A stretch of 64,000 nucleotides of DNA from Quercus robur (Eukaryota > Streptophyta > Magnoliopsida > Fagales > Fagaceae): contig NC_065535.1 of NCBI RefSeq assembly GCF_932294415.1, positions 29,032,782 through 29,096,781 of the forward strand, written 5' to 3'. This document shows positions 13,280 through 61,189 of the stretch, piece after piece. A model generated the notes under the pieces. That model saw nothing but the letters and a program-made list of their open reading frames with translations, searched no databases and was not told the DNA's origin. Position numbers and translations under genes: made by a program. Every line of letters starts with the position of its first letter. The first letter of the stretch is position 1.

Positions 13280-13338
13280 AGTTTGGACAAATATTGTTCC
13301 ATACAAACTGTAATATCACAACTTCCATATTGTACCTT

Positions 13339-13473: not shown

Positions 13474-13572
13474 CTTCACAAAAAAAAAAAAACCAAAAAG
13501 GCCCACATGTTCCCACTAGGTTTACTTCCAATGCTGGCATGCGTACCCACTAGCTTCATTCATTTCTTGCCT

Positions 13573-16215: not shown

Positions 16216-16249
<34 letters not shown>

Positions 16250-37399: not shown

Positions 37400-38114
37400 A
37401 TGTATACACCCAGAAGAATCCGAGTCCTTGGTTGAAGAGTTACATGAGGGGATTTGTGGAAGTCACACCGGAGGAAGATCGCTGGCGCACAGGGCACTTA
37501 CCTAAGGATACTGGTGGCCGAACATGCAAAGGGAGGCCCAAGAATATGCAAAGAAGTGTGATCAGTGCCAGAGATTCGCCCCAAATATCCACCAACCCGG
37601 AGGAGTCCTTAACCCTCTCTCCAGCCCCTGGCCGTTTGCTCAGTGGGGTCTTGATATTGTCGGTCCTTTCCCCAAAGCGGCAGGAAATAAGCGATACATA
37701 ATAGTCGGGACTGATTATTTCACCAAGTGGGTGGAGGCTAAACCTTTGGCCAACATCAGGGATGTGGATGCCAAGAAATTCATTTGGAAAAACATTATTA
37801 CACGCTTCGGAACTCCACACACACTCATCTCGGACAACGGTCTCCAATTTGATAGTAAGAACTTCAGGGAGTACTGCTGCGAATTTAGGATCATTAACCG
37901 GTATTCCACTCCTGCCTACCCTCAAGGAAATGGGCAAGCCGAGGCCGTAAACAAAGTCATAGTAAGTGGTCTGAAAAAGAGATTGGATGATGCAAAGGGG
38001 AGATGGGTGGAAGAGCTCCCGCATGTTTTATGGACTTATCGGACGACGCCGAGGCGGTCAACGGGTGAAACTTCCTTTTCAATGACTTATGGGGCCGAGG
38101 CCGTACTCCCAATC
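37400..38114 (+). pseudogene. Gypsy integrase, upstream part (fossil)
   Basis: The zinc-binding region (CDQCQRFAP) and the catalytic core (GLDIVGPFP, FTKWVEAKPL, ISDNGLQFDS, NGQAEAVNK) are visible. The reading region is interrupted where the MULE at 38124 enters and resumes beyond 61189. Confidence 0.9.
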
Positions 38115-38123
38115 GAGAATAGC

Positions 38124-38210
38124 GGCGAAAATGGCCAACTGGCCTTAAAAATGAAACTATCTAGTTAGTAGGCTCTCCTTAGAAACATATTTCGTTTATA
38201 GCATCTCGAG
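38124..38210 (+). repeat. left TIR core of giant MULE
   Basis: The 87-bp core pairs with 61094-61180 with three mismatches. Weaker similarity continues inward through the TCGAG palindromes. Confidence 0.93.
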
Positions 38211-38396
38211 CCTTAGAGGCTCGATTTTGGTCTTAAAATCGAGCCTTTGGGCCTCGATTTTCTACTGTGATCTGGCCTGTATGGGGTGGAATGGTCCAGC
38301 TGGAAATCGAGTCTTTTAGACTCGATTTCCACGTGGATCTTGAGTCTTAGAGACTCGATTTCCAGCTGGAAAACGAGTCTCATAAACTCGATTTTT
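38205..38396. repeat. four subterminal palindromes, left end
   Basis: Palindromes built on AATCGAGTCT...AGACTCGATT lie at about 38205-38230, 38236-38262, 38301-38330 and 38339-38396 (the last partly overlapping pairs). The best copy is 30 bp long and starts and ends GGAAATCGAG/CTCGATTTCC. Similar modules sit at the right end and in the internal palindrome. Confidence 0.85.
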
Positions 38397-38695
38397 GAGT
38401 ACAGTTACTCTCTTGTTTTAATCGTGTCTGATGTCTGGTCATGTCAAGTCCCACAGCTCAGCTGGTTTTGTCTGGTCTGGGGTTTCTCAGGAGTCAGCCT
38501 TTGCAGTTTGCACATGCTCACTCATTGTAGGTATACATTCAGTTGTCTGGCTTATAGGTATACATGCTAGCACCCACATCCTTCCTCTCACTCATTTTCA
38601 TTTCAGCATAAAATTTATTATCTGGCTGTGCTCTTTTACTCTCATACAAATCTCACCCCATTACAAACTTCAAATCAAACTCACCCCACATCCTC

Positions 38696-41600
38696 ATGTC
38701 AGGTAAGGTTTCTCAATCTCTCTAATTAGTTACATATATAAATATAATATATATATATATATATATATATTTATATGTGTATTGTTAGGTTTTTTTATGG
38801 GTATGTGTATCATGACTAATTTTTTTGTTTGGTTTGATATTGTTTTTTATATTTTTGATAGAATGATTTGAAGGTTTGTAATGGGGTGAGTTGTGTGTTT
38901 AGTTTTTTTTTTTTTTAGTATAATTAATGATTTTTTATTTTTTATTTTATTTTGGAAACAAATGATAATGATTGGGTGTGTTTGTATGTGAATATGCAAA
39001 TGTGGGGTTTGTAAGAAGTTATATTTGGTAGTGTATATATTTGCTAGGATTTTATACAAAGTAAAAAATATATTTAGGTATATATTTGTATTGTTAGGCT
39101 TTTATCATGACTATTTTTGCAAGTTAGTGTATATAATTTGCTAGGATTTTATACAAAGTAAAAAATATTGTAGATATATATTTGTATTGTTAGGCTTTTA
39201 TCATGACTATTTTTGCAAGTTAATGTATATATTTGCTAGGATTTTATAACAAGTAAAAAATATTGTAGATATATATTTGTATTGCTAGGCTTTTATCATG
39301 GCTATTTTTCTTGTTGTTTGGTTTGATATTTTTATTTATATTAGTTAGAGCTGAGTTGAAATTTTGTAATGGGGGTGAGTTTTGTTTTTAGTTTTTTTAT
39401 TTGTTTGAGTACGAAATGATAATGATTGAGTGTGTTTGTATGTGATGTGGGGTGAGTATATGCAATTGTGGGGTGAGAATTTGTGATTTTTGTACTTTGA
39501 GTAGATAGAAAAGGTTTTGTAATTGATGTTAAATGAAAGAAAAAAATATGTCGCTAACATATTATACTTGACTCTTTAATAGGTTCACAACATCTGAAGA
39601 ATATTGATATAAATGTATACTACGGTGGACCCCTTAACAATCCTGGGGGGATTGAGGGATTTCCATTTACAGGGCCAGGTATCCAATGCTACCCCATGAT
39701 GATACGTCGTAAGTTGAAGACGTTGAATGATTTGAAGTTGAAAATAATGGACGAATTGAATTTGAACTCTGCTTGGTATGACATCAAGATTATTTATTGT
39801 TACCCACAAGAAGTCCTACATGAACGGATAAATTACGAGTATATGGCGATTAAAGAAGACAAACATGTGAAGATGATGTTTAATAGGATCCAGAAAATGC
39901 CCTAAGTAAATGCTGCTGAGTTGTACATAAGTTCAGAGCCGCTTGTGGAAGTTGATACTGAGATGGTGCAACAAACAACTACGTCTTTACAATTTACAGC
40001 CCTTGATGATGGATGCACTGCAATGGGAGGGTATACAATGGGAGATTATATGCTCCCATCTCAAGATCATGTTGTAAATACTGGTGAAACCCTCCATTGT
40101 CAAAAGACACATTTAGAGGAGGATGACGAAGACGAAGACGAAGATCATGCTACGAATGATGGTGAAAGTATTGATGGTGTGGATGAGTACAAAGAGAGGA
40201 TTGAACAAGGCGACCTTGAGAACGATGTGGATGACCATGAAATCGTTCCCCATTTTGAAGAGGAAAATATGGAGTTCCATGATGAAGGTGATGCAGACGA
40301 TGATATTGGCATCTAGCGTGATACAAATACGACCACTGGCTACAGACCTCCTGCTAACTCATTCTACGCAAATACTTGGGAAAATATGTTTGATCCTTCA
40401 CGTCTATTAGAACCATTTGTTTGTACTTGGCAAGATGGGATGCATTTTTGTAAAGGGTTGACTTTTGCAAATAAATCGGCGGTGAAACGTGCATTGACAA
40501 TATACGCAGCAAATGATAATAGAAATTTTATAACCCGGAGGTCGAGCACCACAAAATTGTGCGTCGCATGTGTTGATGACAATTGCAAGTGGTACGTTGG
40601 GGCATTCATGAAGAATAAACTTAATGGTCTGTGGGTGGTCACGTCTTATGTGGGTCCACACACTTGTATACCCTTTGGCCTGCAAAGAGACGGTAGAATG
40701 ATGGATTCTAATTTTGTTGCATCAGAAATTGTGGAAAAATTGCGACAAAATCACACTGCTCGTATTGATGAGCTCTGGGAGATCATACGTACTAAGTATA
40801 ATCATGAGCTTTCTTACTATAAAGTATGGGACGCAAAACAAAAGGCAATTGCTAAGATATTTGGGGATTGGGAGGAGTCTTACCAAAGGTTGCGGAAATT
40901 GTTGTTGGCATACTTGGATCAAGACTCAGGTACCAAGTACAGCTATCACACCATACCTAGGCCATACGAAGGTATTGCGGTACTTCGCTATGTATATTGG
41001 GCATTCGCTCCATGCATTGCTGCATTCAAATATTGCAGGCCAGTGATCAGTATTGATGGGACTCATTTGTATGGTAAATACAAAGGGGTGTTGATGATTG
41101 CAATGGCAACTGATGCTAACCAAAAGGTTTTGCCTCTCGCCTTTGCTGTTGTAGACAGGGAGTCAGGGCTTAGTTGGGGTTGGTTTTTAGAGTGTCTTAG
41201 GACTTCCATAGAGCATGTCATACCTAAGGATGGCATTTGCATTATTTCTGACCGACATAAAGGTATCAGATGCGCCATTCAAGAGTGGCCTAGAGGTGAG
41301 GACGGAAGAGAACAGGTATATCATCGATATTGCCTTCGACATGTTGCTAGCAACTTCAACACAAAATTTAAGGACCCGACTTTAAAGGCATTGGCCTTGA
41401 AAGCTGGATATGCGACTCATGAAGCAAAATTCACGTCCATAATGCAAACCATTAAGGAGGCCGAGATTAATTTACTGAGGGGTGTAGACCCTATTGATCG
41501 CCACATCCTATGCTATATGCCTTACACATATCTAATGAGTGAGGATGTTGACAAATGGACCCAGTCACAAGATGGTGGAAGACGTTACGGGGCAATGACA

Positions 41601-42341
41601 ACCAATATCTCTGAGTGTTTTAATGGGGTACTTAAAGGTGCCCGCGATTTGTCCATTGCTACAATGGTTGAGTTCACATGATCCAAACTTGTTGCATATT
41701 TCTACGATCGACATGAAAAAATTCTTTCTGATCTCTCTCAAGGTAAGGTGTGGAGTGATTATGCAATGAAGATCTATAACAAAAATGAGCAGAAAACTGC
41801 AGGACACACTCTGAGGAATTTTAATCATGAAATTGGTGTATATCAAGTGGTTACCTCGTATAACGACCATAGAGGTGGAGGGGGAAACCACAGTCATGAA
41901 GTGCACGTAATTGAGCAAACATGTGGTTGTGGAAAGTGGCAAAACTTGAAGATCCCTTGTTCACATGCAATTAAAGTTCTTAAAGGTCTGCACCTTGATG
42001 CGACCAGCTATATTGACCCATGTTACAGTTTGAACAACGCCATTCAGACATATTCACATCATTTTGTGGTGCCAAAATCAGAGTCATTGTGGAGGGATGT
42101 TTGCGAACCACGGTGGGTGCCTGACCCACAGCTATTGCGGGGCAAAGGTCGTCCTGTGAAGTCAAGATTAAGGAATGAAATGGATGGGATACGACGAGAA
42201 CGGGGAAGCCGGAGGGAAGATCCGGACTTGAGGGAGATTCAACCAAGGCAACGATGTGGAGTGTGTCATCAAGAGGGGCATAACCGCAGATGTTGTCCCA
42301 GTTCCCATGGGGCTTCGACAAGTGGTGGTGCTGCAAACTAG
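38696..42341 (+). pseudogene. mudrA: decayed mudrA-type transposase of the giant MULE
   Basis: A mini-exon ATGTCAG (38696-38702) is followed by donor GTAAGG; the acceptor at 39582 opens a single long exon (39583-42341) in one frame. Three in-frame stops (39903 TAA, 40315 TAG, 41680 TGA) lie in otherwise undamaged sequence. About 920 codons are present. An N-terminal region begins after INVYYGG, then a Glu/Asp-rich stretch, the MULE DDE core (SIDGTHLYGKYKG, IISDRHKG, NISECFNGVL), a SWIM finger (CGC...CSH) and a CCHC knuckle (CGVCHQEGHNRRCC). It is a different lineage from the transposase at 13573-16873. The stops fit single transitions (for example Gln or Arg to stop), as expected after cytosine methylation. 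Confidence 0.9.
39029..39315 (+). repeat. 96-bp tandem repeat in mudrA intron
   Basis: Three copies of a unit containing TTTGCTAGGATTTTATA and TTGTTAGGCTTTTATCATG start near 39029, 39126 and 39222. They lie inside the 880-bp intron of the transposase gene. A looser duplication of GATAATGATTG[AG]GTGTG sequence flanks them. Confidence 0.85.
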
Positions 42342-43000
42342 GCAAGTGTTGTCACTGTTTTTATATAATATGCTCAGAATGTCATTTGGTTGTTGTTCTT
42401 CACATTTGGAAACTAACAACTGTACCTTCGTGGTTGTCAGGCGAGCGGAGATTGGATTTTTGAATGGCATTGTACGTGGGACTTGTGGTTATATTCGGTA
42501 TGGACAAGTGCAGCAAATTCTATGTAGACTATGTTGTATCAGTATGGAAAAGTTATAGGTGACTATGTAGAGTATGTTGTATCAGTATGGACAAGTGTTA
42601 GACGACTATGTAGACTATGTTGTATTGACTTAGTTTTTATTTTGTTTATTGCTAAATATTGTGCTAATTGAACATTTGTTATCCATTGTACTCGTTACAT
42701 TAATTGCGTTGTGCAGCTTTTGCCTGTAATGCAATGATATGGCATTGGCAATGTAGCTACTACTTTGCCAACTTCAACCACAGCGGCCTTGTTTGAACCG
42801 ATGATAATGTATTGACTCTTTTTGTGTGCTAAGGGCAACTAAAATGCCCATGAATAGTAACTGTTTGAATCCGATTGTTTGCATCTGATGTACTCTCTCC
42901 TTGACTGGTGATTATGCTTGTATCTACTTCTTTACCGCTGACCATGTGATGTGTTCTGGATCTCTTTTACTATTGTAGGGGAAGGGACAAAAGTAATTCT
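42342..43000. other. 3' flank of the transposase gene
   Basis: This should hold the transposase 3' UTR. A short unit with GACTATGTAGA[CG]TATGTTGTAT recurs at about 42521-42630. No other gene is seen. Confidence 0.5.
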
Positions 43001-43649
43001 GGTTTACACCTATAGGACTGCAAAACAAACGGAAAAAAAAAAAAAAATACTTCCCAGTGGAAATCGAGTTTCTAAAACTCGATTTCCATTTGGGTGGCAT
43101 TATCGCAAATAAATTACATGAACCAATTTACAAAAATGCCACGTTCAATGGAAATCGAGTTTCTAAAACTCGATTTCCACTGGGAAGTTTGCTCTCACAC
43201 TTCCCCCTAAAAAATTTTGCTCTCGGGTTGGCAGGAAAATTCCCCAGTGGAAATCGAGTTTCTAAAACTCGATTTCCACTGAACGTGGCATTCTTGTAAA
43301 TATATCACTGGAAATCGAGTTTTAGAAACTCGATTTCCAGTGAACGTGGCACTTTTGTAAATATTTCACTGGAAATCGAGTTTCTAAAACTCGATTTCCA
43401 CTGGGTAATTTTCCTCCCAACCCGAGAGCAAAATTTTTTAGGGGGAAGTGTGAGAGTACATTTCCCAGTGGAAATCGAGTTTCTAAAACTCGATTTCCAT
43501 TGAAGTGGCATTTTTGTAAATTGCTTTATGTAATTTATTTGCGATAATGCCACCCAAATGGAAATCGAGTTTTAGAAACTCGATTTCCACTGGGAAGTTT
43601 TTTTTTTTTTTTTTCATTTGTTTTGCATTCCTGTAGGTGTAAACCAGAA
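43001..43649. repeat. 650-bp mirror-symmetric palindrome with seven 30-bp palindromic modules
   Basis: The whole stretch is an inverted repeat centred near 43325. Seven copies of a 30-bp palindrome (GGAAATCGAG...CTCGATTTCC) lie at 43059, 43150, 43249, 43310, 43371, 43470 and 43560. Their centres are placed symmetrically at 61, 160 and 250 bp on each side of the central copy. The spacers also pair, for example CTCTCGGGTTGG with CCAACCCGAGAG, and the outer arms pair at CTGGTTTACACCTA. It could extrude as a large branched cruciform. It lies between the transposase gene and the host-gene cargo. Confidence 0.93.
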
Positions 43650-43914
43650 ACTCGATTCAAAGGGTTGTATTTGGTAATCACCTATCTAGACTAGTTCTAA
43701 GAGCATCAAAAATGTGAATGTAGTACATTAAAAACAAAATGTACTGCATTTTGAAATTATTAATATAACATTATTATGAAATACACCAAGAGCATTACTG
43801 TCCAACTTTGTAAATGCAGATCCTACAATCTCATAATATAAATCTTGTAATACAAATTTCTACAGAGCAAACCTTTCCAGTAATACAAATCTCATAATAT
43901 AAACCTTGTCATAC

Positions 43915-44255
43915 AATCTCGCTCCTTGCCAATAAATTTCCTTGCAATTGGAATAATTACCCTATCATACATGGGGACCCAAAAAATAAAACTGATGACA
44001 TCAAAGGATGAGAGAGAGGCTGCGGGAATGGTGAAAGAACCAATGCTTGTGTCCATCATCATTCCTTGCTCCACAAACATTGTACACATCTGGGCATAAA
44101 CAGCAGAAAAGACAATTCCAGTAGCCCAGATTGGAAACATGCGGATCAAAATCTTCAATTCTTCCACCTGTGTTACAGTGCAAAGCCTCCATGGATTGGA
44201 GAATTCCTCACTTTTGCTCTCAACATCTGACACTACAGCGGCTTTATCAAGGCAC
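43915..44255 (-). pseudogene. captured fragment of an NPF8-type peptide transporter gene
   Basis: Minus-strand translation from 44255 begins CLDKAAVV and runs through WRLCTVTQVEELKILIR, PIWATGIVFSAVYAQM and FWVPMYDRVIIPIARKF. This is a conserved part of the NRT1/PTR family, subfamily 8 (di/tripeptide transporters), in the second half of the protein. An acceptor AG precedes it at 44256, so it is the start of an exon in genomic form. The similarity stops near 43915, where the capture breakpoint must lie. Upstream exons are absent. It cannot make a transporter. Confidence 0.9.
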
Positions 44256-45085
44256 CTGTGCAGCAAAAATAAATTAACAGTGAATTTTTTTCCTGGGGCA
44301 GAATTTGTTATGCAGTTGACAAAGTTGGGAAAAATGTCAAACTTTCATGTAGGTACATACAGTGAAATGATCTCATGTCATCAGTACAATTCTACACAAA
44401 GCTAAGTAATTTGTGTTGAACAAAGCATTAATTATAAAGAACAAGTTCTTTATAGTGAACAAAGCATGAATATGACTAGATCTATCATTATAGTGACAAT
44501 ACTTCAATAACAGCTACTATGTAGTGTCATTGCACATTAAATAATAAACAAAATTACAAAGACTTGTCTACATGAGTTCCATCCAGATCAGCACCACTAA
44601 CACAACTTTCATTTTAGCTAAAAAATTAAGCAAATAGATTTCATTTAAGAAGGATACATATGCCTCTCCATCTAAATATTAGTAAAATCTTAAAGCAGGG
44701 GTTACTCGATTACTCCAGATTGGCCCCAAATGGGGTCTAGTTTTAATTTAATAAATCAAGAGTATTATATAACAGTACCACTTGTGAAGAAAGGGAAAAG
44801 CATGTTACGGCTGGAGTGGCCAAAAAACTTTTAGTTCAATGGCATTTCCCAGATCTCTCCATGGAGAGAACTTGAGTTCAAATTAATAAGTTCCCCACAA
44901 AGAGCAATAATGAGGAACATTTTGCAAAATATAAATGGTGTGAAGATTAAAAAACTAGCAAGCACTATAAAATTAGAGCACATAGCCCAATCAGAAAGTT
45001 AAGCATAATTTAAACTTTTGGCAAAGCTTTAGAGACATTCATTCGGATGTTGGCCCAATAGAAGGAAAAGGATAAAATTTTATAC
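44256..45085. other. cargo DNA without recognised exons
   Basis: AT-rich DNA between the NPF8 and SirB fragments, probably intron or flank from one of the donor genes. The breakpoint between the two donors lies here but is not visible. Confidence 0.5.
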
Positions 45086-45404
45086 CACAAGTAGATCATG
45101 CAGACCAAGAGGTGCAGTAACGATATATGACACATTAGGGTGTTCTTTTGCAGCTTCAGCAGCTAACGAAGGAATATCCTGTAAAGTGACACAAAGCATT
45201 TTTATTAAAAAAAAAAAAAAAAAATCAATCTAGTCACCAATTTTGTACAGTATATCTATAATCAAGGCACCAAAGGAAAGTAAGCCGAGCTACCTGATGC
45301 CAGTGTCGTCCAGGGAAGAGAAAAAATGGGCTTACAATCACACGATCTGCACCTTGTTGAATGCAAGAAACAAATGCATCTCTTATTGATGGTTCTGCCA
45401 GCTC
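45086..45404 (-). pseudogene. SIRB: captured two-exon fragment of sirohydrochlorin ferrochelatase
   Basis: Two internal exons are present: 45404-45294 (37 codons, ELAEPSIRDAFVSCIQQGAD...) and 45178-45086 (31 codons, DIPSLAAEAAKEHPNV...). A GT/AG intron separates them in phase 0. They match the CbiX/SirB domain of the chloroplast enzyme that inserts iron into sirohydrochlorin to make siroheme. The metal-binding start of the protein and its C-terminus are missing. The retained intron shows capture of genomic DNA, not of mRNA. Confidence 0.9.
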
Positions 45405-45740
45405 CTACCCATATCAAAGATATTTCAATAAATGAGAAGCCGTTTGCGCAGAAATAAAACCATCACAAAAGCAACATAGTATGATGTCCACCCAAAAAGG
45501 CAAGAAAACCAAGCAGCAGCGCTACACGCACTAAAAACTAACCTAAATCATCAAGGCAGTACTGATCAACACAAGGTTTGATCCCACCAGTCCCCAAAGC
45601 AACCAGATAGAGCCCGAAGAAGAAGACCATGTACTGAGCTGGAGTAGCTGACGGGCATACAGTCCCCATTTGGTCCACTTATCGATTGAATACACCTACC
45701 CGACTTCTTATGATACACCTCCATTTTCGTGGACCTCAGA

Positions 45741-45955
45741 GGTAGGGTCCAAGGAAACTGATGAAAAGGTTGACGAGGTTCTAAAGTTGGATATCTTGGA
45801 CGGTTGGACTCCAGAAAATCATTATAGATGGTCTAAATCTAGAAATGTTTAACACTTAGATTCAGTCCATCCATAGTGATTTTCTGGCGTCCAACAGTCC
45901 AAGATATCCAACTTTAGAACCTCGTAGCCTTTTCATCAGTTTCCTTGGACCCTAC
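45741..45955. mobile_element. foldback MITE, 215 bp, inside the cargo
   Basis: The left arm (GTAGGGTCCAAGGAAACTGA...) and right arm (...TCAGTTTCCTTGGACCCTAC) are inverted and nearly identical over about 95 bp. A short loop (about 45835-45860) separates them. No duplication was identified with certainty. Confidence 0.85.
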
Positions 45956-46097
45956 GTACAGAGCAAAGTTCAAAAATAGATACGGTCCTGATAAACAACA
46001 TAATCATACAACACATTTTCAAACTCCCCAACTTCATGAGGCTTAGCCCCTCTAAATGTTGTTAAGAAGCAATATGTTTATAAAATAAGTGTAATTG

Positions 46098-46495
46098 AAA
46101 TGAGAATGTTAAGATGAATAAATGAAAAAAATAAGATAGAATATGAAATGAGGAAATTCGCTTAAAAATTGGATGGCCTTTATTAATAAAAAGATGGGAG
46201 GGAGTCATGTGAAATGGTTTGGTCATATGCCAAGTAGAGCAATTAATGCACTAATAAAAAAGAGAGTTTGATTCTAGTCAATGGAACGAAAAAGGTAGAG
46301 GAAGTCCTAAAATAATACTAATAAAATTAGCAAAACAGCACTTGTCAATTAAAGATGTAACAAAAACTATGATTTCGGATATAATAGAATGAAAGAATAC
46401 GTTTTGAACTTGATTAATATGTCGAGTTTCCATAACCAACCCCAAATATTTGGAGCTAAGTGTTGGTTCTTATTGCTGTCATCGCCCAATAATAT
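46098..46495 (+). pseudogene. LINE (RTE-type) 3' fragment
   Basis: Decayed plus-strand sequence corresponds to the C-terminal end of a plant non-LTR reverse transcriptase. Pieces resembling MRML, the WFGHM...RAINA block, GRGRPK, LSIKDVT and SDIIE appear in shifting frames. It ends with the GGAGCTAAGTGTTGGTTCTTA-like tail seen at the 3' ends of such elements. It is 5'-truncated to about 0.4 kb and carries several frameshifts and stops, so it is old. Confidence 0.7.
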
Positions 46496-46515
46496 TTGAA
46501 TAACCCGCATGTGCA

Positions 46516-46592
46516 CTAGCCAGAAAACATAACATGCAAGACTATTACACTCTTATCAGAAAACATAACATGCAAGACTATTACACTCTTAT
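46516..46592. repeat. 36-bp tandem duplication at the end of the SNM1-like fragment
   Basis: AGAAAACATAACATGCAAGA and the following ACTATTACACTCTTATC occur twice head to tail without a difference. The duplication lies at the apparent capture edge. Confidence 0.85.
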
Positions 46593-48730
46593 CTGCTATA
46601 CCTGTCTTGCTTTCTGACTTATGGCATTTCACTTCAGTTTCCTCCTGGAATGAGAATTCTTCTACTTTGCTGGCAGATATTTGTGGAGGGTTATTGTTGA
46701 TAGATGCAACTATTGGACCTTCATGTGAAAAACTAAAATCTTGGAGACCAAGTCTCGCTCTTCCAAATAATGTCACTTTTTTGCTTGGAGGGGACAATTT
46801 TATAAGTCCTTTTAGGCCAGTAGATACTTTTACTGGTTCAAATTGAGGTTGAGCATAAGTTTGGGTGTGCTCTTCAACCATAGGAGAACCACTAACACCT
46901 TTGACGGATACATCCAAATCTGGAGAACCTTCTGTGGAAATATCAAGAAGCTTCCAGATAGGGTCATTTGGAGCTACTTGATTGCCAAAGCAGTGTTTCT
47001 TAACAAAATCTAGCTCCATGGCCCTGCAACTGCGGGTTGTTGAAACAACCCCTTTCGGCACAAGAAGTTGCAGGGCCCATTCTAATTCTTCCTTGGATGA
47101 GTGAATGGAGTAACAAACATGCCAAACACCAAATTGGTCCCTTACTGCCTCATTCATTCTCAGTTTTCTTTGACTTTCATTCTCCAAGAACTCTTCCTCA
47201 CATGCATACCACTGTGCTGATGGGCGGATTATGAGAGGGGTAGGCTGGCAGTGAGCTTGGGCCTCCAAAAGCTTTGCTTTTGCTCTTTCATATAGTTTAG
47301 GAAATCCATCTAATACCTGGAAGTGGGACGAGGAATCTTCAGAGATAATGTCAGGAAATGTTAGGGTTAGAGCTTGGAAACACTCTGGATTAGAGGCTTT
47401 ATCAACATAGATCTTGGACCCAAATGTTTGGGACACATTTGCCAGAATTTCTTCCTGGCTAAGAAGGTCACAGGTCAGATAAACCACAAGGGCATCAGGA
47501 TCCTGCCATATACAATTAATAACCTATTTCATGGAAACGTAGTTTGAAATGTAAGAAGCAAATTGAGGTTATATTGATACAGTGACATAAGAAATGTGCT
47601 TAACATTTAAGATAGAACTGTAGAGAAAAACAATCACATGCCCACACACGCACTCACTCCAATGAGAGAGAGAGAGAGAGAGAGTCATAAACTGCTAAGA
47701 AATATAATAATAAAACATAAACATGAAACTTTTTTATTACGCAAACAATTGTCAAGATTATGACAAGGAGAATAAAAGGTCATCTATTTTAAAATAATTT
47801 GAATGGAATTTCTTTCACAATTGGATGCCCTTATTGATTACTATTACTGATATATAATAATGCTAGTAAGAATTCCCAAAGCCTGCTTAAGTGCCTTACT
47901 TATGGACACTAAGATAATGATACGTATAACAAGAATGAACTGTGAATTAACAGCATCCATTTATGATATATACCTAAACCAGAACTCATATTAACCTTGA
48001 GGTTAGATGTAGCAATAAAAAAAATGTGTAGAGGAAAATAAAGTATCCTAGGAAAAAATTAGGCCTACATAAGGGCTCATTTATAATTACACATCAAATA
48101 TGAATGCCTGCTAAATGAATTAACCATTGATGAGGTTTGAAATGAGGTTTCTAAGGATATGCTATCTACAGAAAAATTTTCATGATCCATAAATTAAAGA
48201 TGCAGAATATTGTTTCCACAAATTTTCAAAAGATTACCTTAATGTAAAACAAACTAAAACTACAAAGGAGCAAGCAAGATAGATACTATCAATGGTAATA
48301 GCCATGAAAATAGATTTTGATTAAACCAAATACAAGTATATAAAGACAGCTGTATTATATTTGCAAGTTCTGCACATTTCAATCTAACATGAGGAAAAAA
48401 AAAAAAAGTATGTAGGGCTTACAGTAAGGTCATAATATACACATCGCAGCATGTTTGAGACCACCGATCACTTCATAAATTATAAAAGAAACATGAATAG
48501 AATGAAGACCGTGGGTACCTGTTGGATTGCTGAGTGCTTGCTGGGAAGGTTCTGACGAAATCTCCCAAATGTGCAGTCTAGGAAAACATAATCAAGTTGA
48601 CACCTTGGTACTTTTCCTTTCTTGGCAACAAACTTCTTTGGTAAACTTTGTACACACTCAGCCGTGAGTCTGCAATCTCCTATGTGCAAGATATTACCAA
48701 AATTGCCTTCAAACAAGAACATTACAGCTC
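46516..48730 (-). pseudogene. captured fragment of an SNM1/Apollo-like nuclease gene
   Basis: Two exons are recognised: 48730-48519 (AVMFLFEG...GNILHIGDCRLT...FLDCTFG) and 47523-46516 (VINCIWQDPDALVVYLTCD...). They join in phase (AIQQ|VINC). The protein resembles the plant metallo-beta-lactamase/beta-CASP protein of the Arabidopsis At1g19025 type, related to DNA cross-link repair nucleases. The first exons with the HxHxDH metal-binding motif are missing. The long exon stays open for 335 codons and ends in a 36-bp tandem duplication (46516-46590) that encodes DKSVIVLHVMFS twice. The last part of this exon therefore looks non-native, and the true 3' end may be lost. Confidence 0.88.
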
Positions 48731-49562
48731 CTGAGGTTTACAAAACCCATACCAGAAAAGGGACAATCTGTCAATAGAGCTTCTCAAAATCCAATTCCAA
48801 GCCTCACCCACAAGTTTCTTACCACTTGCACCCTCTCTGTTAATCATCTATCATAAGTTACCCTTCCCATGTCAAAAAATAGCAACAAAGTACAAGAAAT
48901 TATCAAACTCTACAATCCATCCCTAAAAATAAAATAAAAGAAATAAGCTGACCAAGGACAACAGTCATGACTATTTCATCATCCTATAATAATACCCAGC
49001 AACAATGATCAGGACAGAGTAACTACATTAGACAGATACTATAACCCAACAATATGGACATGATTAACTTTAAATACAAAAGGAGGAAATTCCTATATAA
49101 TCCTAGCAACAGTGCAGGATCATGCCAAATAGTTCAATTCATAAAGAATACAAAATCAAACCCACTCTCTAAAATTCATCCAGATGAACAAGTTAGTCAA
49201 CAATATAAACTCAAAGGAAATCAAAAGTATGTAGAATTGAAGACTTACATGGCAAGCAAGGATGTAACAGAATTGCTTCTTTCTCAGCTAATCATTACAG
49301 GAAGTAAAAACTTGCTTCACATACTGCCAACAAATACTTTGGACTATGAGGACCAAACCAAAATAACATTTTAAGGATTGCATCATAAATTTTATCAAGT
49401 ATTTAATAAGATTTTCTAGTAATGTGTAGCTGTGAAATTCTTCAATCAATGAAGAAATATAATTCCCCTTGTAGCTCTTTACCAAATACAGGTAAACACA
49501 ATGCACAATTGAATAGTAAGGGAAGGATGAGTTATAAAAAGTATTTTTCTTAAAGTACAAAC
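48731..49562. other. cargo DNA between SNM1-like and RPN1 fragments
   Basis: No exon is recognised. The donor breakpoint between the two genes must be here. A plus-strand open frame (about 49054-49374) has no coding character. Confidence 0.5.
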
Positions 49563-52363: not shown

Positions 52364-52470
52364 CTGACACAATACACGACACAAAAATTTGTTATGCGAA
52401 TGACCCAACAACAACCAGAAATTTGAAATAGAATTCCTAAATGCTTATTTGTGTAATATCTAAACTTTTA

Positions 52471-52474
<4 letters not shown>

Positions 52475-52521
<47 letters not shown>

Positions 52522-52540
52522 AAATTATGTGCACAAAAAG

Positions 52541-52596
<56 letters not shown>
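52475..52596. repeat. CT...GT/GA compound microsatellite at the GC6-RPN1 junction
   Basis: About 22 CT units (52475-52518), a 23-bp spacer, about 10 GT units and about 17 GA units. The CT and GA arms are complementary and can fold into a hairpin. It lies between the last GC6 exon (52637) and the first RPN1 exon (52363). Confidence 0.95.
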
Positions 52597-52636
52597 GCAA
52601 AAAGACAGTGAACAATGTTCAGAAAAGTCATCTTAC

Positions 52637-54348
52637 CGCGCAACGGACAGCTACTGGTGCCCACTGGCTTTCAACACCCAACAAAAGAAGATGATCCAAT
52701 ACTTTTTTCTGCAACCAATATACACATTACAGGATAAGATACCACCAAGTTAATGATTCTAAAGGAAGTAATTATAGAAGATATGAAGTTAGCAAGAAAC
52801 CTGAACCAGTGTTGCTTTATTTGTTAGCTTATTTGCATCTTTTCCAGGATCAGCCTCTGTACCTCCCATCATTAACAAATTAATGGTTTCTAATGCACTG
52901 AGTAGATTAATTGTCTACTGGCATGGCGTTTGTTTCAAGGAAAAGAAGAAATACCAGTAAGGCTTCTGTGACAGAAAATTCAAAGATCTATGGTAAAATC
53001 TTATATACATTTCAGTATCTAACCTTTTGTTGGGTGAAACTGTAAGTACTTCCCCGTAGCTTCAGAATTGATATTACGGGGTCAAATCCCATAGTCTCTC
53101 TCAGTAGTATCTGAACCACACTTGGAAGCATTAGGAGCATGAGAGAATCTCAAGCATAAAATATAACACAACAGAGGCTGCAGACCTGATTAGATGCATT
53201 AGTTCGGAGAAGGTTGTTCAACAATTGAAGACAGTCTTGCACCATTACATGCATAATAGTTTTATAACCAAGATATTCGCAGAATTCTCAAATGCTTGTA
53301 AAGAAAAATAGAAATGAATAAATTGAGGAATAGCTAAACAGTCAACAACCATAAGTTGTTCTGTGATTCTGAGAAAAACAAAAAGTTTTGAAAATGGGAC
53401 TCAGAATCAAGGCCAATGCACATAACTTTGTTTATTGTAACAAATTTTCTACAAAGAATATCTCCCCCCCCCCCCCCCTTCTCTCTCTCTCTCTTCTATG
53501 TTAGGTGTTTGTCTGGGCGAGTAGAACCATAAAGAGAAAATCATAATGATGGATCAACAAAGCCTTTGTACATGCTTTCTTGTCACCTAAAATGTTCAAC
53601 TAGAATGTGTCAAATGAGCAACATAACCCATACAGGAGAGGACAGCCAAAGGATAATATAAAGCATGTGGGTTTCAAACTCAAAAAAATGGTCAAAACTA
53701 CAAGAGTCCTTAATTTAGGCTACAAGTAGAATCATAACCATAAATAAACAATGACAAAATAGAACATTCAGACCAAAACCCACAAATGGTGCTGAATCTC
53801 AATGTAATTATAGCATATAAACAGCTCATTTAGCTAGCGAACTAGTGATATGCAATAGAGTCACTTAAACACTATCATAACTTCATTGTTGAAGCTGTCT
53901 TAGTAATCCATGACAAACTACTCGATTGATTGATATAATTGAGAAAGTGTCACATTCAAAAGACCATAAAGGAAACAAGTTTTAAATTGTAGACACCCAA
54001 ACAATAAGAAGCCATTTGCAAGACAAGTAATTTATCAGTAAACAAGCTAGAAAAGTTGATTAAACTACCATGATAAATTGAGTAACAGTAAATCACCTGC
54101 ACAACAACACCACCTTCTGAACCTCCTTCCTCTTTAATGATGCTGAAAATCTTCTCAAATGCACCTTCAAAGACCACAATTTTTTGAATCTCCTAAAATT
54201 CACAAAACTGTATTAATTAGTAGGGAAATCAAACACATTTTCAAGCACAGGTTCAGCAGAACCATTAGATGACAAAGTGGCAGGAATATCTTACCTCAGC
54301 TTCACGGGTCAAATAAGTAAGCAACAGTAAGGCCTCGTTTCGAATAAC
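52637..54348 (-). pseudogene. GC6: captured six-exon fragment of the p115 golgin GC6/MAG4
   Basis: Exons, 5' to 3': 54348-54295 (VIRNEALLLLTYLTREAE), 54192-54097 (EIQKIVVFEGAFEKIFSIIK...), 53236-53186 (DCLQLLNNLLRTNASNQ), 53110-53024 (ILLRETMGFDPVISILKLRG...), 52914-52801 (TINLLSALETINLLMMGG...) and 52708-52637 (KKVLDHLLLLGVESQWAP...). They are consecutive exons of the armadillo head of the vesicle-tethering factor p115 (Arabidopsis golgin candidate 6/MAG4). All are phase 0. The acceptor of the third exon reads AA instead of AG, which would block its normal splicing. The start, the rest of the head and the coiled-coil tail are missing. Confidence 0.92.
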
Positions 54349-54687
54349 CTAAGAACCACAATTGTTTTTAATACAAGTACAAGAAGAAAACCAAACTGAT
54401 AAATTACCAAGTCCCAAGAAGCTTAAGCTTTTAGGAAATTACCAGCCACTTCAAAATCGACCTAAAAGCTGCCTCCTCCAAGCTTATTGGCATTGGAAAA
54501 GTTATTTGTTGCTACTTTTATTGTGCTGAACTTGAATTTTAGTGCTTCCGGCCTTTTCATAGCATCATCATCTTCATGAACATAATTAATGAACAAACCA
54601 TAATGATTAAGTAATTATTATATGACAAATAATGCTTTTTAGCTGGTCATATATTGTAAAATAAACTTTAAAAATGTATCATTTCAG

Positions 54688-57545
54688 TTACCTTTTTTGG
54701 ACCTTATGTCGTCTCGTATAATAAGGAGGAGGTCTTGCATGTCCTTCGTCAGATGCCTCGGGCCCAGCGTTGTGTCCATGTTTGTGCCCTCCTGTCTCAC
54801 AAGGAGGTGCCTTTGATATGCGTTTCGGCCGACCTTCTTGTTGAACAGGTAACCCACCAGCTTCCTCAACATGAACATAGGGTGGGGTGATGGCTAATGA
54901 AGGGCCAATAGACATACTGTCGGAGGGTGGCTCCTGCTGTATGTTAGGTGGGGTTAGATGAATACCCAAGTCAAAGGATGGAATGAGTGACACATCGGGA
55001 AATGACCGTGGGGTGGGTGGACGAATGTCAGGCCCAACACAAGGATGTGGAGTCAATGGGGGGATGGTGGGACTACGGGATGGATGTAGGGTGGGTGAAG
55101 GGATTGTGGGGCTAAGGGATGGATGTGGGGTGGGTGGAGGGGGATTAGAGGTAGGGACAACTCGAGGGGTACGAACACGCAGACGTCTAGTAGGAGCTAT
55201 GCTCGTGCTTGGGCTCTCAGTAGTGCTTGGCCTCTAAGTAGCTGCTGCGGTAGGAGTAGCTGCTGCGGCAGGAGTAGCTGCCTCCTCATTCGGGACCTCA
55301 GGGTCCCGAGGTCGTACACGGCCAATCGCCTGCACTGCAGTCAGCACATCAATAATGTCCTGGTGGTCCTCCGTGCCCACCGGGTGACGGCTCAACAAAC
55401 GAAGGTATCCTTCAATCTGCACATGGAAAAACCAAGTATATTAGTAATGCAATACAGTTTATGTATGTATGAATGAACAATCAATGTTTTATGGGCCCTC
55501 TGCTTGTAGGGCAATTCAAGTTATTCCATAAAAAATTGGGAAGAAGAATGTATACCATAACTCTAAAGGCTGAAATAAGAAATGTGACTTTCAATTTTGA
55601 AATCAACAAAGTTCTCTATAAGGTAAACGAATAAAGTTCTCTATAAGGAATCTTAAGTAGAAAACAACTTTAACCTACTTCTTTGATGCTAAGCATACAT
55701 TGGACCACATATATCATGTTTTATAAATAGTGGTTTCATGCTAAGAAGTACGGTAATATGTACAAGATGTGGAGAAGTTACCAGTATAGTCAGTGTAGCA
55801 CCAGGAACATCAATGAACCTCCGAGTCACCCTTTTGAACCAGTCGAAGTACTCATGCTGTGGAGGCATATCACCAAGCACTGCTTGACAACACCGTTGAA
55901 GGCGGTTACCCCAATTTAGTAAATGCAGAGCATGTTTCCGCATCCAATCAACGCCCACCTTCCCCCTCAAATCAATGGCATGAAGCACGGTGTCAGTGTC
56001 AACATCTTTGGGAATTTCTTGGATCATCCCAAATTGACGAACGACACAATCCGGTGTATGTATCTCTACTAGGTGGAAACATACAAGCAACACCGTTGCC
56101 GTCCACACAGCCCTCCCTGCAACGTACCATGGCGGAAGGTCCTCAAAATCGGCTTCATACGGCTGCCACACCACCTACAGTAGCCCAAAAACAAGTACGC
56201 AACACATTAGGCAACTATATTTATATTTCAAAATTCACCAAACATATATCTTGTTCCTAAACATGTTAACATGTTAAACAAGGCATTTTCATACCTGGCT
56301 TGGCAACATTGAAGCTATTTGCTGGCGATACCTATCCCTGAAGATGTGGGCAGGCCTGTTTTTCTTGTTTGGGACCCACGCCCACCTACAAGTGTTGTCA
56401 AGAACAAAAGATCAATATTTATAACTTTCCTACTAAGATAATGTCATGACTAAAACTATAATGTTATCACATATAACTACTAAGATAATGTTATAGATAA
56501 AAACTAGGCAATTAATAATATCACTACAATAAGAACTAATCTTTATAAGGTAGAGACTTACTTCAGGTACAGAGGACCACGCGCTGGAGGACCATAAGCG
56601 CCCACTGGTGGGCCACGCTCAATTGCCAGGCACAAATAGGGGAACCTGGCCTATACCCAATACTGCACCAACAGTAAGCATCCACCGATTTGACTGGTTT
56701 CCTTATGGCTTGCCCTGCATAGCTCTCGGTACAACCATACAAGGTAAGCACTCCCCCAACTGTACCTTCGTGGGTTGCGAAGGTCTTCCAACTGCTGCAC
56801 CCACATTAGATGCACCCTATCGCCAGATTTGTCCATGAATATTGTGTTCCCCAGTAGCGCTAGGATATAGCATCATGCGTACTTATGTAGCTCATCCTCT
56901 TCGGCATTAGGCGGCAATGGATTAGCAACTTGCTCCAAAAGCCATTTGATGAGAATCCTTTGGCCATGAAGTTCCTTATGCTGGTCTTGAGTTATAGGTC
57001 GAAAGCCAAGGAACTCCTCGCACACAATCGTCCAAGTTTTCTGTGTGCTCCCTATTACAGCGTCACCATCGACAGGAAACCCGAGAATCACCTCCACATC
57101 CTGCAATGTAATGGTCATCTCACCATGTGGCATGTGGAAGGTGTGAGTCTCGGGCCGCCATCGCTCCACTAAGGCTGTAATTAGGCCGTGGTCAAGCTCT
57201 CTACCCGGCTGCCTTAGCAGTCCCTCCAAGCCCAATGCCTTAATGATGTCAACAACTCGATCATCTACCATTGGCTCTCGGTTGGAGAACTCTTCAGTAC
57301 GGCCATGGCAAGTAAGGGCCCCTGGATCCTGCACAAAACAAATCCTTGGATTAACATATGACAAACGTCTGCATGTATATTGTATGAATTAAATGCGTGT
57401 ACATTTTACATAAATATTTACTGCTGTATTGTACCTGCCCATTCCGAATAGCTTCTGACCGATGGGTGGGCTGCAACTTTAACACCGAATCGTCAATAGG
57501 GCCAGGCCGTGTATGGTCAATCCGTCTAGCATTTGCAGCATCCAT
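54688..57545 (-). pseudogene. plant mobile domain (MAIN-like) gene, decayed
   Basis: Exons, 5' to 3': 57545-57435, 57328-56562, 56385-56295, 56174-55782 and 55416-54688, all GT/AG. It begins MDAANARRIDHTRPGP and shows the plant mobile domain blocks HGLITALVERWRPETHTFH, MTITLQDVEVILG, DRVHLMWVQQLEDL and WPYEADFEDLPP-like sequence. A long Pro/Ser/Thr-rich tail ends KVQKR. Databases often call such proteins serine/threonine phosphatase 7 long form homologs, although no phosphatase domain is present. Three in-frame stops (56873 TGA, 56648 TAG, 55234 TAG) interrupt it; each fits one transition. This domain is found both in host genes (MAIN/MAIL, silencing-related) and in plant transposons. Its near full length contrasts with the short host fragments. 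Confidence 0.88.
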
Positions 57546-58021
57546 ATTGCACAAGAATGATAAGCAATTAGCACGAAATATTGACATTGCAAGCAAACAT
57601 AGATATGATGGTGCAAAAGTTTTTTTTGAGCTAAATAAAACAAAAATATGATAATTTAATATTTTACTAGCTATATAAACTTGCTGATTAGAATCTCAAT
57701 GAGATCACTTAGGTCTAACTAGAATTACTATACTCCAATGAGAACACTTAGGTGTTCATAACCTTCCCATTTTTTTTCCTATATTGAATAATGGTCCAAA
57801 GCCACACGTAAGTGGATTGGATCCATATGATATTGCAGCAGATTGAACTAATCCTTTTACAAGTACACTACAATTATGTGACCTTAAATGTTTAAAAGTT
57901 CTATTAGTCGTGATTTATGAGGATCATTGTATAATCTCTACTTATTTGTGCTTTTCTTTAGTAAATTCTCTTGGTGAACGATTAAAAGTTATTTTTACCT
58001 TGTGAAATTTTTTTTGAATAG

Positions 58022-58341
58022 CCATTGTTGGGGACATTACACCTTCAGATGGGATTTCAAAGGAAGAGAAGAGTCGACAAGAACGAGAAGCATTAGACCA
58101 CATGTGCAAATTACTTGGTGGAGGGTCAAGAGGTACTTTATTCACTAACTCTATGTGTGCGCACGTATTGTTGTCAATGTGAGGAAAATGAATTTGTTAT
58201 TCCTCTACCTGAAAGTAATTAGTTGTTTGACAATTTTTGACTTCCTATTTATAAATTGCAGCCCAGGAAATAGGTGAGTTGTGGTTGGAATATGAGGAGA
58301 ATTCTTCACCAAAGGCTAAAATTGTTAAGGACCTTGACAAG
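58022..58341 (+). pseudogene. HDDC2: captured two-exon fragment of an HDDC2-like phosphohydrolase
   Basis: Two exons, 58022-58132 and 58262-58341, are separated by a 129-bp GT/AG intron and join in phase. They read IVGDITPSDGISKEEKSR...LDHMCKLLGGGSR and AQEIGELWLEYEENSSPKAK...KDLDK. This is the middle of the HD-domain 5'-deoxynucleotidase HDDC2/YfbR family; DITP carries part of the HD-domain metal/substrate region. It is the only captured host piece on the plus strand. The first HD-motif exons and the C-terminus are absent. Confidence 0.9.
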
Positions 58342-60000
58342 GTATATTGCAGCTATAGTAATGCATTTTATTTAATAATAATTTAACTTTGATTCACTAC
58401 TTTTGCCTAGAAGCCTTATTGTTCAATGGCATTGCTTGGTGTTTCCAACAGAGACATCTAGGGTTTAAATCCCCACTCCCAACTTAAAATGTATCAAAAA
58501 AACATTGACACAGTACCTTTGTAGCAACTTTTAGTTTGAAGTTCAATTATTCCTTTTTTAAAGATCTTATGGTTTCAGTAACTGATGTTCTTTATTTAAC
58601 TGCTTGTCTGAGAGGGAGCCAACCTGGCAGTTACCATCAAATAGAAAACCAATTCCTCAAACAAGCAGTTATTATCTGCTCAACAAAGACTAGTTGCTTT
58701 CTTCATACAGCATTATGGCATAATAAATTGCCCACTGTTCTTTGTACTTTTTCTCAAAATCTCTTGGAAACCCATCAATTGGGTTATTTTTAATGATAAT
58801 TTAAGTTTTAATAGTGGTAAAGTAGTAAGACATAATCTTAAATGGAGGATATTTTGACTTTTCTCTATTTTATTTTATTTTATCCCTTTGGAATGAGAAA
58901 TCTTATGCAAAAGTTTGGTAAAAGAGGAATGCCGATGTAGACAAATTGTAAAGTAGCTAATGACTGATCAAAAACAAAAAAAAAAATAAGAAAGGGAGAA
59001 AAAAATAAAAAAAGAAACAAAAAAGAAGTGGCTAATAAGCCAGATTCTAATGACAAGTTGACAACGCTAGTAAAGATAGCATTTAAAGTGGTGTTGATAC
59101 AACTTTGGTGATAATTGACAAATCATGCTTATACTTTAAAAATAATATGATGTGACACATTATTTGTGTTTTATACTAATATTAATGACCAAGAAAAAAA
59201 TTTGTTGACTTTTCCATAGCCAACTTAGAACCCAGTTTTAAATCAGACTAAATTGGATGAGATATGCTTGTTTGAACATCTAAACTTTCTAGAGATATTG
59301 TTGTCCAATTCTGCTTTAGAATTAGTTTAAATGGGCCAAGAATCTTGTAATTTAGTGACATTTCCTGATCTCTTTTATAAGGAAAACCAGCGTTTAAATC
59401 CCCCTCAATAATTGAATAGGGTTTAGGTTTTGTTTTCAAAGAGGCATTTGGTTCCTAGAGTTCAAAAGCACCCGTAGCTTAAAGCCGTAAGTTCTATGTG
59501 CTTTGTTCACCGAATCAAAGCCACCCAAATATGCAAAATCGATTCTAGATACCTAAAACCAATTTATGCCAAGCCAGCTAACGTAAACAAAACTTCTAAC
59601 CAAAATCCCTTAATCAAAACTAAATCTAATCCATCTATTTAAACTAATTAAACAAAACCATTCCTAACCGAAAAACCTAAATCATAACCAATCAACCAAA
59701 ATACATAACTGAAAAAAGACTATGTAATTTGTTTCTTCAATAGCAAACTACTAAGTGCTTTTTTATATGCATATAATTTAGTAATTTGTAATGGTACTAT
59801 AACATTTAAATATATGAGATAACTATTTCATATAAACTTGTAAGTTCTAAGCTCCTAATAGACAAGCAAATGGGCCTAATGAGATATACAATTCTCTCCT
59901 AAAAGCTATAATCCTAATCAGCAATAACAATCTAACCTGAAGCCAGAAATTTGGAAAGTCTTAAGGATGGCAGCAACAATATGCACTATCCAAGCAAGAA
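58342..60000. other. cargo DNA without recognised exons
   Basis: AT-rich DNA following the HDDC2 fragment, probably its next intron in the first part. No gene is recognised. Confidence 0.5.
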
Positions 60001-60486
60001 TGTCATCTGCACTCACCAAATCCAAACCCAAATTTCATAAAAATCATAAAATAAAAATTAAATAAAGTATCTACCACAAAATCCAAACCCAAATTTCACA
60101 AAAATCAAAACTGAAAATTAAATAAATAACCTAAATGTTAAGTATCCAAATCCAAACCCAAAATTTCACAATAATCAAAACAAAAAATCAAATAAATAAC
60201 TTACCAAGCAAAATCGGAATGGGTAACCAAGCAAGTTTGACTTTAGCCAAAGAGAGTTGAATGTCATTTGCACTCACCAAATCCAAACCCAAATTTCATA
60301 AAAATCATAAAATAAAAATTAAATAAAGTATCTACCACAAAATCCAAACCCAAATTTCACAAAAATCAAAACTGAAAATTAAATAAATAACCTAGATGTT
60401 AAGTATCCAAATCCAAACCCAAAATTTCACAATAATCAAAACAAAAAATCATATAAATAACTTACCAACCAAAATCGGAATGGGTA
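60001..60486. repeat. 226-bp direct repeat, two copies
   Basis: Copy one (60001-60226) and copy two (60261-60486) are almost identical, beginning ATGTCAT[CT]TGCACTCACC and ending CAAAATCGGAATGGGTA. A 34-bp spacer separates them. Each copy also contains internal CAAATCCAAACCCAAA repeats. Confidence 0.9.
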
Positions 60487-60892
60487 TGGGTATGGGTATG
60501 GTGAGGAAAAATGAATGGGTATGGGGGTGGTAATGAGAGAGAGGGAGAAAAGGAGAAAGGATCTCCTAGTGAGGGAGAGAGAGATCGACGAGGAGAGGAG
60601 CCGATGGCTGGGCTCAGCCTCGTCGGCGTCGTCGCTGGGCTGGGCTGGGCTCTGCTCGTCGACGCCGGCGAGGTTCTGTGTGTGTGTAAGCGTGTGTGAA
60701 TGTGAGAGGCCGTGTGAGAGATAGAGAGAAAATGAGAGAGTTTTGTGAGTGTGGGAAATGAAAATGTAAGAGTGAGGGTGAGAGAGTGAGAGCGCTCTGG
60801 TTTGTGTGAGAGTGAGAAGGTGTGAGTGTGAGTGTGAGTGAAAGTGAGACAAATGCAATAGAGACGAAGACGTTAATTTTGAAAAACCCCAA
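60487..60892. other. GA-rich and TGAG-repeat region inside the right end
   Basis: Plus strand is rich in GAGAG and GTGTGAG units with a short GC-rich core (about 60596-60672). It has the look of a promoter or 5'-UTR region, but no linked coding sequence is recognised. Long open frames here are low-complexity Ser/His/Leu translations. Confidence 0.45.
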
Positions 60893-60894
60893 TT

Positions 60895-61099
60895 GGAAAC
60901 CGAGTCTCTAAGACTCGATTTCCAGGGGCTTCCACATCGCTCAGCTAGGTTGGCATACACGTGGAAATCGAGTCTAAGAGACTCGATTTCCATGTCAATG
61001 CCAGATGGCAACTCTGCCACATCAAACGTGGTCGAAGCATACAAACCGAGCCTTAAAGACTTGATTTTGAAGCCCAAAATCGAGTCTTTAAGACTCGAG
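60895..61099. repeat. four subterminal palindromes, right end
   Basis: Palindromes of the GGAAATCGAGTCT...AGACTCGATTTCC type lie at about 60895-60924, 60962-60992, 61043-61069 and 61076-61099. They mirror the four at the left end. Confidence 0.85.
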
Positions 61100-61180
61100 A
61101 TACTATAAACGAAATATGTTTCTAAAGAGAGCCTACTAACTAGATAGTTTCGTTTTTAAGGCCAGTTGGCCATTTTCGCC
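61094..61180 (-). repeat. right TIR core of giant MULE
   Basis: This is the inverted partner of 38124-38210. It is followed directly by the second copy of the 9-bp duplication, GAGAATAGC. Confidence 0.93.
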
Positions 61181-61189
61181 GAGAATAGC

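Follow-up and report, generated by a model that had tools for sequence, protein, structure and literature searches.

A 23-kb Mutator-like element in Quercus robur with pieces of several host genes captured step by step

Pack-MULEs are by definition non-autonomous Mutator-like elements (MULEs) (PMC8903248, PMC3310237), and none of those described by Jiang in 2004 exceeded a full-length element of 7 kb, as stated in PMC6431247. Transposase-coding MULE families of larger size have been described in grapevine, with 17.7 kb for Mutavine-1 and 16.2 kb for Mutavine-18, together with a Mutator family in which sequence from both exons and introns has been captured (PMC2528002). An antisense plant mobile domain (PMD) gene is listed for most MUDR-group members and often in MUDRAVI2 (PMC6446971), and the capture of PMD from host genes by MULEs has already been proposed (PMC5418596). 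In animals, Pack-TIRs have been explained by FoSTeST or gap filling, in which template switching with a median microhomology of 2 bp is combined with spread by transposition, and the authors called an application of the template-switch model to plant Pack-MULEs “worth exploring” (PMC8277862). Maize Helitrons can be as long as 39 kb and contain as many as nine gene fragments (PMC6431247). Gene acquisition by MULEs is still called perplexing or open (PMC8277862, PMC13317346). In the open-licence PMC literature, no MULE family of the size reported below with mapped multi-step captures was found. Here, we present a large MULE at positions 38124-61180 of a 64,000-nucleotide stretch of the Quercus robur genome (contig NC_065535.1, positions 29,032,782 to 29,096,781), termed the window throughout, and the family to which it belongs.

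The sequence between positions 38124 and 61180 (23,057 bp) is one MULE and is best read as a single insertion. Its ends (38123-38260 and 61043-61181) are inverted repeats with 89.9% identity over 139 columns, and the 9-bp sequence GAGAATAGC is present only twice in the window, at positions 38115 and 61181. The frame of the surrounding Gypsy integrase is uninterrupted once 120 bp of each flank are joined across one copy of this target-site duplication (TSD). Taken together, the inverted ends, the perfect TSD and the closing of the integrase frame show that the single insertion is real. Long terminal inverted repeats (TIRs), a TSD of 9 bp where 9-11 bp are expected and a transposase of the MULE type all agree with the class assignment. 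The initial annotation, made from the sequence of the window, had proposed that the 23 kb arrived as one unit inside a Gypsy integrase, and its coordinates were exact to the base; a TIR was correctly recognized on both ends as well, although the repeat is longer than the 87 bp it had given.

The searched genome comprised 785.7 Mb in 42 contigs, and loci outside the window are given as contig:position. End searches scored the best 40 of 620 left-end and the best 40 of 755 right-end candidates, and copy counts are to be read as lower bounds. At least 46 left-end matches were obtained from the candidates scored, and the same ends recur across the family in both searches. Each of the 11 larger copies for which both ends were located is flanked by a matching 9-bp duplication; these copies span 4.5-32.6 kb, ten of them at least 11.7 kb (Table 1). 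This number includes the window copy and leaves out a copy on C41 (right end C41:5325537); one of the two ends of E30, of sA and of the C1 copy was placed one to a few bases away from where the search match stopped. The search for further copies with these TIRs, suggested in the initial annotation, thus revealed a family. Modules common to copies at independent sites are mostly 95-98% identical. Matches to the transposase gene MURA (best 40 of 488 candidates scored) show identities of 88-100%, and a properly oriented right end lies no more than 60 kb away for 23 of the 40 (31 right ends used). In these 23 cases, the right end lies 10.1-36.4 kb from the start of MURA (median 19.6 kb), farthest in the C41 copy. 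Five copies (E24, E15, E14, E11, E4), at separate sites and with their own TSDs, are 92-100% identical over shared blocks. They look like a nested internal-deletion series, in which the deletions may have occurred before or after insertion. E15, E14 and E11 are mutually 99-100% identical over shared blocks, with 2-3 differences per 2,832 bases in MURA, a closeness in keeping with recent movement.

Donors were mapped for six captured stretches, which together make up about 10.8 of the 23 kb: NPF, a locus without a gene name, SNM1-like, RPN1, GC6-like and HDDC2. Most exons were identified by eye in six-frame translations. Pfam matches in the window element comprise PTR2 (NPF), DRMBL (SNM1-like), CbiX (SirB), RPN1_RPN2_N and HD_3 (HDDC2), and comparison with PDB structures assigned the RPN1 piece to 8amz_Z (26S proteasome non-ATPase subunit 2 homolog) and also named HDDC2. 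The plant gene names GC6, CRK, SirB, SNM1 and VPS45 are those which we take to apply, the domain matches having been computed separately, and GC6 is a label presumed from its peptides. The GC6-like sequence gave no convincing Pfam match in the pieces and donor flanks searched, nor did the single donor flank compared with PDB structures match any of them. A genome search with the SirB piece gave only matches of 75-85% and no close donor, and the NPF piece omits 790 bp of its donor with a 2-bp overlap at the join. The CRK-kinase-like fragment lies in sequence common to the relatives and is thus an older acquisition. Relatives of the SNM1-like gene (about 74-83% identity) cluster around its donor, at C39:15919676-16595237.

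At the donor loci of NPF, HDDC2, RPN1, SNM1-like, GC6-like and a further gene, AtuA, which is carried by other copies, exons of the same gene continue past the captured part as read by eye; for RPN1, the donor flank was confirmed by Pfam. The possibility that the HDDC2 donor locus is itself another copy of the element was rejected once upstream exons were read there. The donors of the genes just named are still present at their own loci, having been copied and not moved. The cargo consists of contiguous genomic chunks of up to 3.6 kb with intron sequence, and since the donor alignments continue through the introns, genomic DNA was copied and not mRNA; cDNA-mediated capture was rejected on this ground. 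Further pieces in relatives are AtuA and Sec1/VPS45 (E24, in blocks common to E15, E14 and E11), both confirmed by Pfam. E30 and E24 have the most complete AtuA block, parts of which are kept in E15, E14, E11, sA and sB. Hence, pieces of at least six host genes do accompany a transposase gene, as claimed at the outset, and they trace to separate donor loci and not to a single collinear host locus.

Table 1. Features of the window element and copies of its family in the Q. robur genome (window positions, or contig:position)
Feature	Coordinates	Strand	Remarks
Gypsy integrase, upstream part of target	37506..38123	+	
Left TSD GAGAATAGC	38115..38123	.	
Left TIR	38124..38260	+	89.9% to right end
MURA-type transposase gene	39558..42341	+	three in-frame stops in window copy; open in E11, E14, E24
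Large imperfect palindrome/inverted-repeat cluster, 3' of MURA	42997..43649	.	self-complementary, 89.5%
NPF/PTR2 piece with intron sequence	43918..44451	-	donor C3:32664136-32664615 (97.9%) and C3:32663290-32663345 (98.2%)
SirB (CbiX) piece, two exons	45083..45404	-	Pfam
Second NPF/PTR2 piece	45541..45678	-	
214-bp near-perfect palindrome	45742..45955	.	common to many copies; capture junction ~100 bp rightward
Piece of unnamed locus	46053..46563	+	from C1:18180761-18181273, 94.2%; short duplication at right end
SNM1-like (DRMBL) piece	46590..48791	-	contiguous donor C39:16384638-16386844, 97.7% over 2,209 columns
RPN1 piece, introns included	48789..52414	-	contiguous donor C37:43021302-43024938, 97.6% over 3,642 columns
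GC6-like piece (presumed name)	52414..54439	-	closest locus C2:69614216-69616197, 95.3% over 2,031 columns; second locus on C3 less similar (91-92%)
CRK-kinase-like fragment (presumed name)	54465..54614	-	no Pfam hit
PMD gene region, presumed 3' tail	54691..57388	-	antisense to MURA; Pfam PMD
HDDC2 piece	57572..59517	+	donor C2:89281022-89282543 and C2:89279398-89279780; 92.9% over 1,575 columns plus one 96% piece
Subterminal direct repeat, two 228-bp units	59998..60486	.	98%
Right TIR	61043..61180	-	alignment to left end, genome search
Right TSD GAGAATAGC	61181..61189	.	
Gypsy integrase, downstream part of target	61181..61555	+	
Copy E30	C5:33638155-33668300		matching 9-bp TSD
Copy E24	C4:70173475-70197785		24.3 kb; matching 9-bp TSD
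Copy E15	C38:7338563-7353837		matching 9-bp TSD
Copy E14	C5:19496724-19511134		matching 9-bp TSD
Copy E11	C38:9996686-10008422		matching 9-bp TSD
Copy E4	C5:87881595-87886129		4.5 kb; matching 9-bp TSD
Copy sA	C4:45612884-45632616		19.7 kb; matching 9-bp TSD
Copy sB	C38:17782736-17795533		12.8 kb; matching 9-bp TSD
C1 copy	C1:52916119-52948703		32.6 kb; matching 9-bp TSD
C38:52.3-Mb copy	C38:52337963-52355567		17.6 kb; matching 9-bp TSD

The captures took place stepwise, in at least three separate events for which before states are preserved in the same genome. Ten relatives were compared at the borders of the main block (window positions 46058 and 54438), shorter palindrome matches (L056-L058) being excluded. 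In eight of them (L043-L046, L049-L051, L053), the homologue of position 46058 is followed by that of 54438 after 39-42 bp, and the site measures about 360 bp in the remaining two (L052, L054). As the short linker is kept in eight relatives and absent from the window copy, the block was inserted; SNM1-like and GC6-like sequence entered adjoining the 214-bp palindrome. In the C41 copy, the SNM1 piece (to C39:16388616) meets the GC6 piece (from C2:69612483) with an overlap of 3 bp and without RPN1, so RPN1 replaced about 3.5 kb later, in the lineage of the window copy and E30. The AtuA block of E30 and E24 is located at the equivalent of window position 55723/55733. Sequence across this site is continuous in the window copy and in five relatives (L045, L046, L049, L050, L053), and the C41 and C38:52.3-Mb copies match to a few bases beyond it. 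Since the site is uninterrupted in these copies, the form without AtuA is the older one. At its start, the block matches the outer 61 bp of the family terminus (98%) and then passes directly into host sequence (C37:52212203-52215869). A family end is absent from the 1.2 kb examined around C37:52212203; most simply, a family member formerly inserted at this point, or one present in another haplotype, served as the template.

Junctions were scored for overlaps between adjoining templates by eye. In the window block, they read TAA, TATC (following a short duplication by slippage), ATC, no clear overlap, and AT; the right AtuA junction shows GTTTCA (6 bp) and the internal NPF junction contributes 2 bp. 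Under a simple chance model, the five window-block junctions share 12 bp in total where 3.9 would be expected (P 0.005), and seven junctions share 20 bp where 5.4 would be expected (P about 1e-4), the latter test leaving out the left AtuA (about 5 bp, one T ambiguous) and the C41 (3 bp) junctions. Microhomology in excess of this chance model and donors that were copied and are still in place are both in line with template switching. The region 45735-45962 around the 214-bp palindrome folds into a DNA hairpin of -94 kcal/mol, compared with -20.8 for shuffled sequences (z -21.6). To the left of this palindrome, relatives (L043-L053) partly differ among themselves and do not match the window copy. 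The left-flank differences among some relatives (window 45677 side) start within about 180 bp of one place, which suggests a recurrent rearrangement point. The pattern of junctions, palindrome and flank agrees with the repair of breaks or forks by template switching, the model put forward for animal Pack-TIRs (PMC8277862).

The explanation which accounts best for these observations, and which we consider probable, is template-switching repair inside an autonomous-type MULE, the whole of which was then transposed. DNA breaks or stalled forks would arise inside the element, probably promoted by the large palindromes. Repair copying would switch at matches of 0-6 bp onto unrelated genomic DNA and then back, so that multi-kilobase chunks of host genes with their introns are inserted and some element sequence is replaced. 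Such captures may pile up successively, and MURA would then move the enlarged element as a unit, generating the 9-bp duplication. Of these steps, we infer which repair pathway acted, that the palindromes played a part and that MURA is active.

Several points weigh against this explanation. The chance model is simple and its overlaps were scored by eye, with the RPN1/GC6 junction entered as 0, and the AtuA block is located elsewhere than the 214-bp palindrome. The donor flanks searched for SNM1-like and GC6-like gave no Pfam match. The identity between donor and copy varies from 92.9 to 98.2% between pieces, so that either the times of capture differ or some of the mapped loci are not the exact source. 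The contrast in constraint between MURA and cargo, though in the expected direction, does not reach significance (Fisher P 0.23). That the family is moved by its own MURA is deduced from TSDs and open reading frames and would thus be a property predicted from sequence.

Acquisition of the whole cargo by a single catastrophic template-switching event could account for several pieces from four contigs lying head to tail within one block. Such one-step capture is largely refuted by the C41 copy, where longer pieces of both SNM1 and GC6 are directly joined, which makes RPN1 the later arrival, and the AtuA block exists only in some copies; we regard it as quite unlikely. Somewhat less improbable, yet still doubtful, is the neighbouring-insertion model known for Pack-TYPE elements, in which adjacent MULE insertions trapped host DNA and moved as a composite. 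In its favour, a terminus is joined to host DNA where the AtuA block of E30 and E24 starts, as would be expected had the family once inserted at the AtuA locus. However, this block has one terminus only, the end search of the window copy revealed no internal terminus but only short subterminal motifs, and the donors of the window block are spread over four contigs. An assembly artefact or a chance stacking of unrelated insertions, for which no supporting observation was made, is scarcely credible: TSDs match in all of the larger copies counted above, and because the ten others have their own TSDs and share modules with the window copy, misassembly was rejected as very unlikely.

Retention of the host pieces for function in element or host, as chimeric proteins or to counteract silencing, would agree with the shared orientation of five of the six recognised captured genes (the exception being HDDC2) and with an open SNM1-like frame of 335 codons in the window. 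Cargo constraint was assessed on exon segments of five genes picked by eye, four of which enter the comparison between window and E30, HDDC2 and one SNM1 segment being absent from E30. Against retention, this comparison showed 6 synonymous and 22 nonsynonymous differences and two stop-codon positions in 583 codons (pN/pS 1.01). The ratios of copy versus donor are 0.45 for the window and 0.40 for E30, values that include change in the donor genes. Moreover, much of the cargo is missing from E15, E14, E11 and E4, possibly by later loss, and yet these copies are flanked by TSDs at their own sites. Retention for function is accordingly among the least likely of the alternatives, a shade below the single event, and the cargo is best read as hitchhiking.

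In the window copy, the MURA product matches the Pfam families MULE (PF10551, E 2.4e-16) and SWIM (PF04434) above the cut-off and DBD_Tnp_Mut (PF03108) under its cut-off; the open protein of E24 likewise matches all three. The nearest named homologues are from the Fagaceae Quercus, Lithocarpus and Castanea. MURA is open in three of the eight copies examined (E11, E14, E24; 937-949 codons), with one internal stop each in E15, sA and sB, two in E30 and three in the window copy. The initial annotation was thus right in listing a transposase gene, but the gene is not intact in this copy. With their open MURA frames, E24 (24.3 kb), E14 and E11 are candidates for autonomous copies. The dN/dS of MURA for the pair of window and E30 is 0.48, five stop-codon positions excluded. 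As MURA with an antisense PMD gene is known from several MULE groups according to PMC6446971, PMD belongs to the core machinery; its interpretation as captured cargo was rejected, and the mobile-domain gene is not the unusual content it had been taken for.

Further insertions and derivatives were noted in the family. An L1-like long interspersed nuclear element in E30 (L009:4111-8238, C5:33642066-33646193) has an open frame of 1,376 codons with endonuclease, reverse transcriptase, zf-RVT and RVT_3 domains and is apparently a young nested insertion; the extra 5.8 kb of E30 were therefore rejected as cargo. A stretch of at least 1.1 kb found only in E24 is 97-99% identical to C5:56157819, C5:56203696 and C5:56256371 and may be a further capture or a nested repeat. 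In the C41 copy, about 13.9 kb (C41:5338999-5352901) between adjacent SNM1 pieces are probably a nested insertion. Four elements of about 1.1-1.2 kb (L023-L026; C5:78171535, C2:19886723, C6:27286914 and C5:84094384) have the family ends and duplications of 9-10 bp and are likely non-autonomous derivatives. The window also contains a different MULE at 11849-17564 (5,716 bp), with long inverted ends of 98% identity, a perfect 9-bp TSD (ATAAATTAA) and a transposase-like gene at 14072-16879 on the minus strand; its frame 12244-12795 presumably encodes a GRF-like zinc finger.

With pre-capture elements, post-capture elements and donors in one genome, junctions known exactly and events partly ordered, the model of capture can be tested in this family. 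Clean insertion is seen for transposase-bearing MULEs of 12-33 kb, well above the sizes quoted for Pack-MULEs, and such elements could confuse the annotation of oak genes. We tentatively propose, as a possibility for which the balance is still slightly unfavourable, that oak harbors a lineage of giant, self-mobile MULEs acting as iterative gene collectors. Two ways of capture, template switching at an intrinsic palindrome and read-out from a terminus into DNA flanking another insertion, would supply multi-gene cargoes of 12-33 kb for spreading, making these elements a plant counterpart of giant cargo transposons.

With Pack-MULEs, the oak element shares TIRs, a 9-bp TSD and host gene pieces from several loci. 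Pack-MULEs, however, are small and lack a transposase, whereas the oak copies have MURA and PMD and reach 32.6 kb; since a MURA gene is present here, albeit broken, the Pack-MULE label of the initial annotation does not suit an element type that by definition is non-autonomous. Multi-gene Helitrons of maize differ in being rolling-circle elements, in which TIRs and TSDs are not expected. MUDR- or MUDRAVI2-type elements resemble the oak family in gene layout, domains and ends (MURA with SWIM, antisense PMD, TIRs and 9-bp TSD), but not in its size and accumulated multi-gene cargo. The Mutavine families are likewise large and transposase-coding but smaller, and a multi-donor block with before and after states does not appear in what PMC2528002 describes of them. 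Regarding the unusual size asserted initially, the combination of multi-donor cargo and transposase stands, and size alone is less unprecedented in view of the 16-18 kb in grapevine (PMC2528002). Animal Pack-TIRs, as characterized in PMC8277862, share template switching at short microhomologies and multicopy spread by transposition; in oak, by contrast, the captures are iterative and occurred in a plant element of autonomous type.

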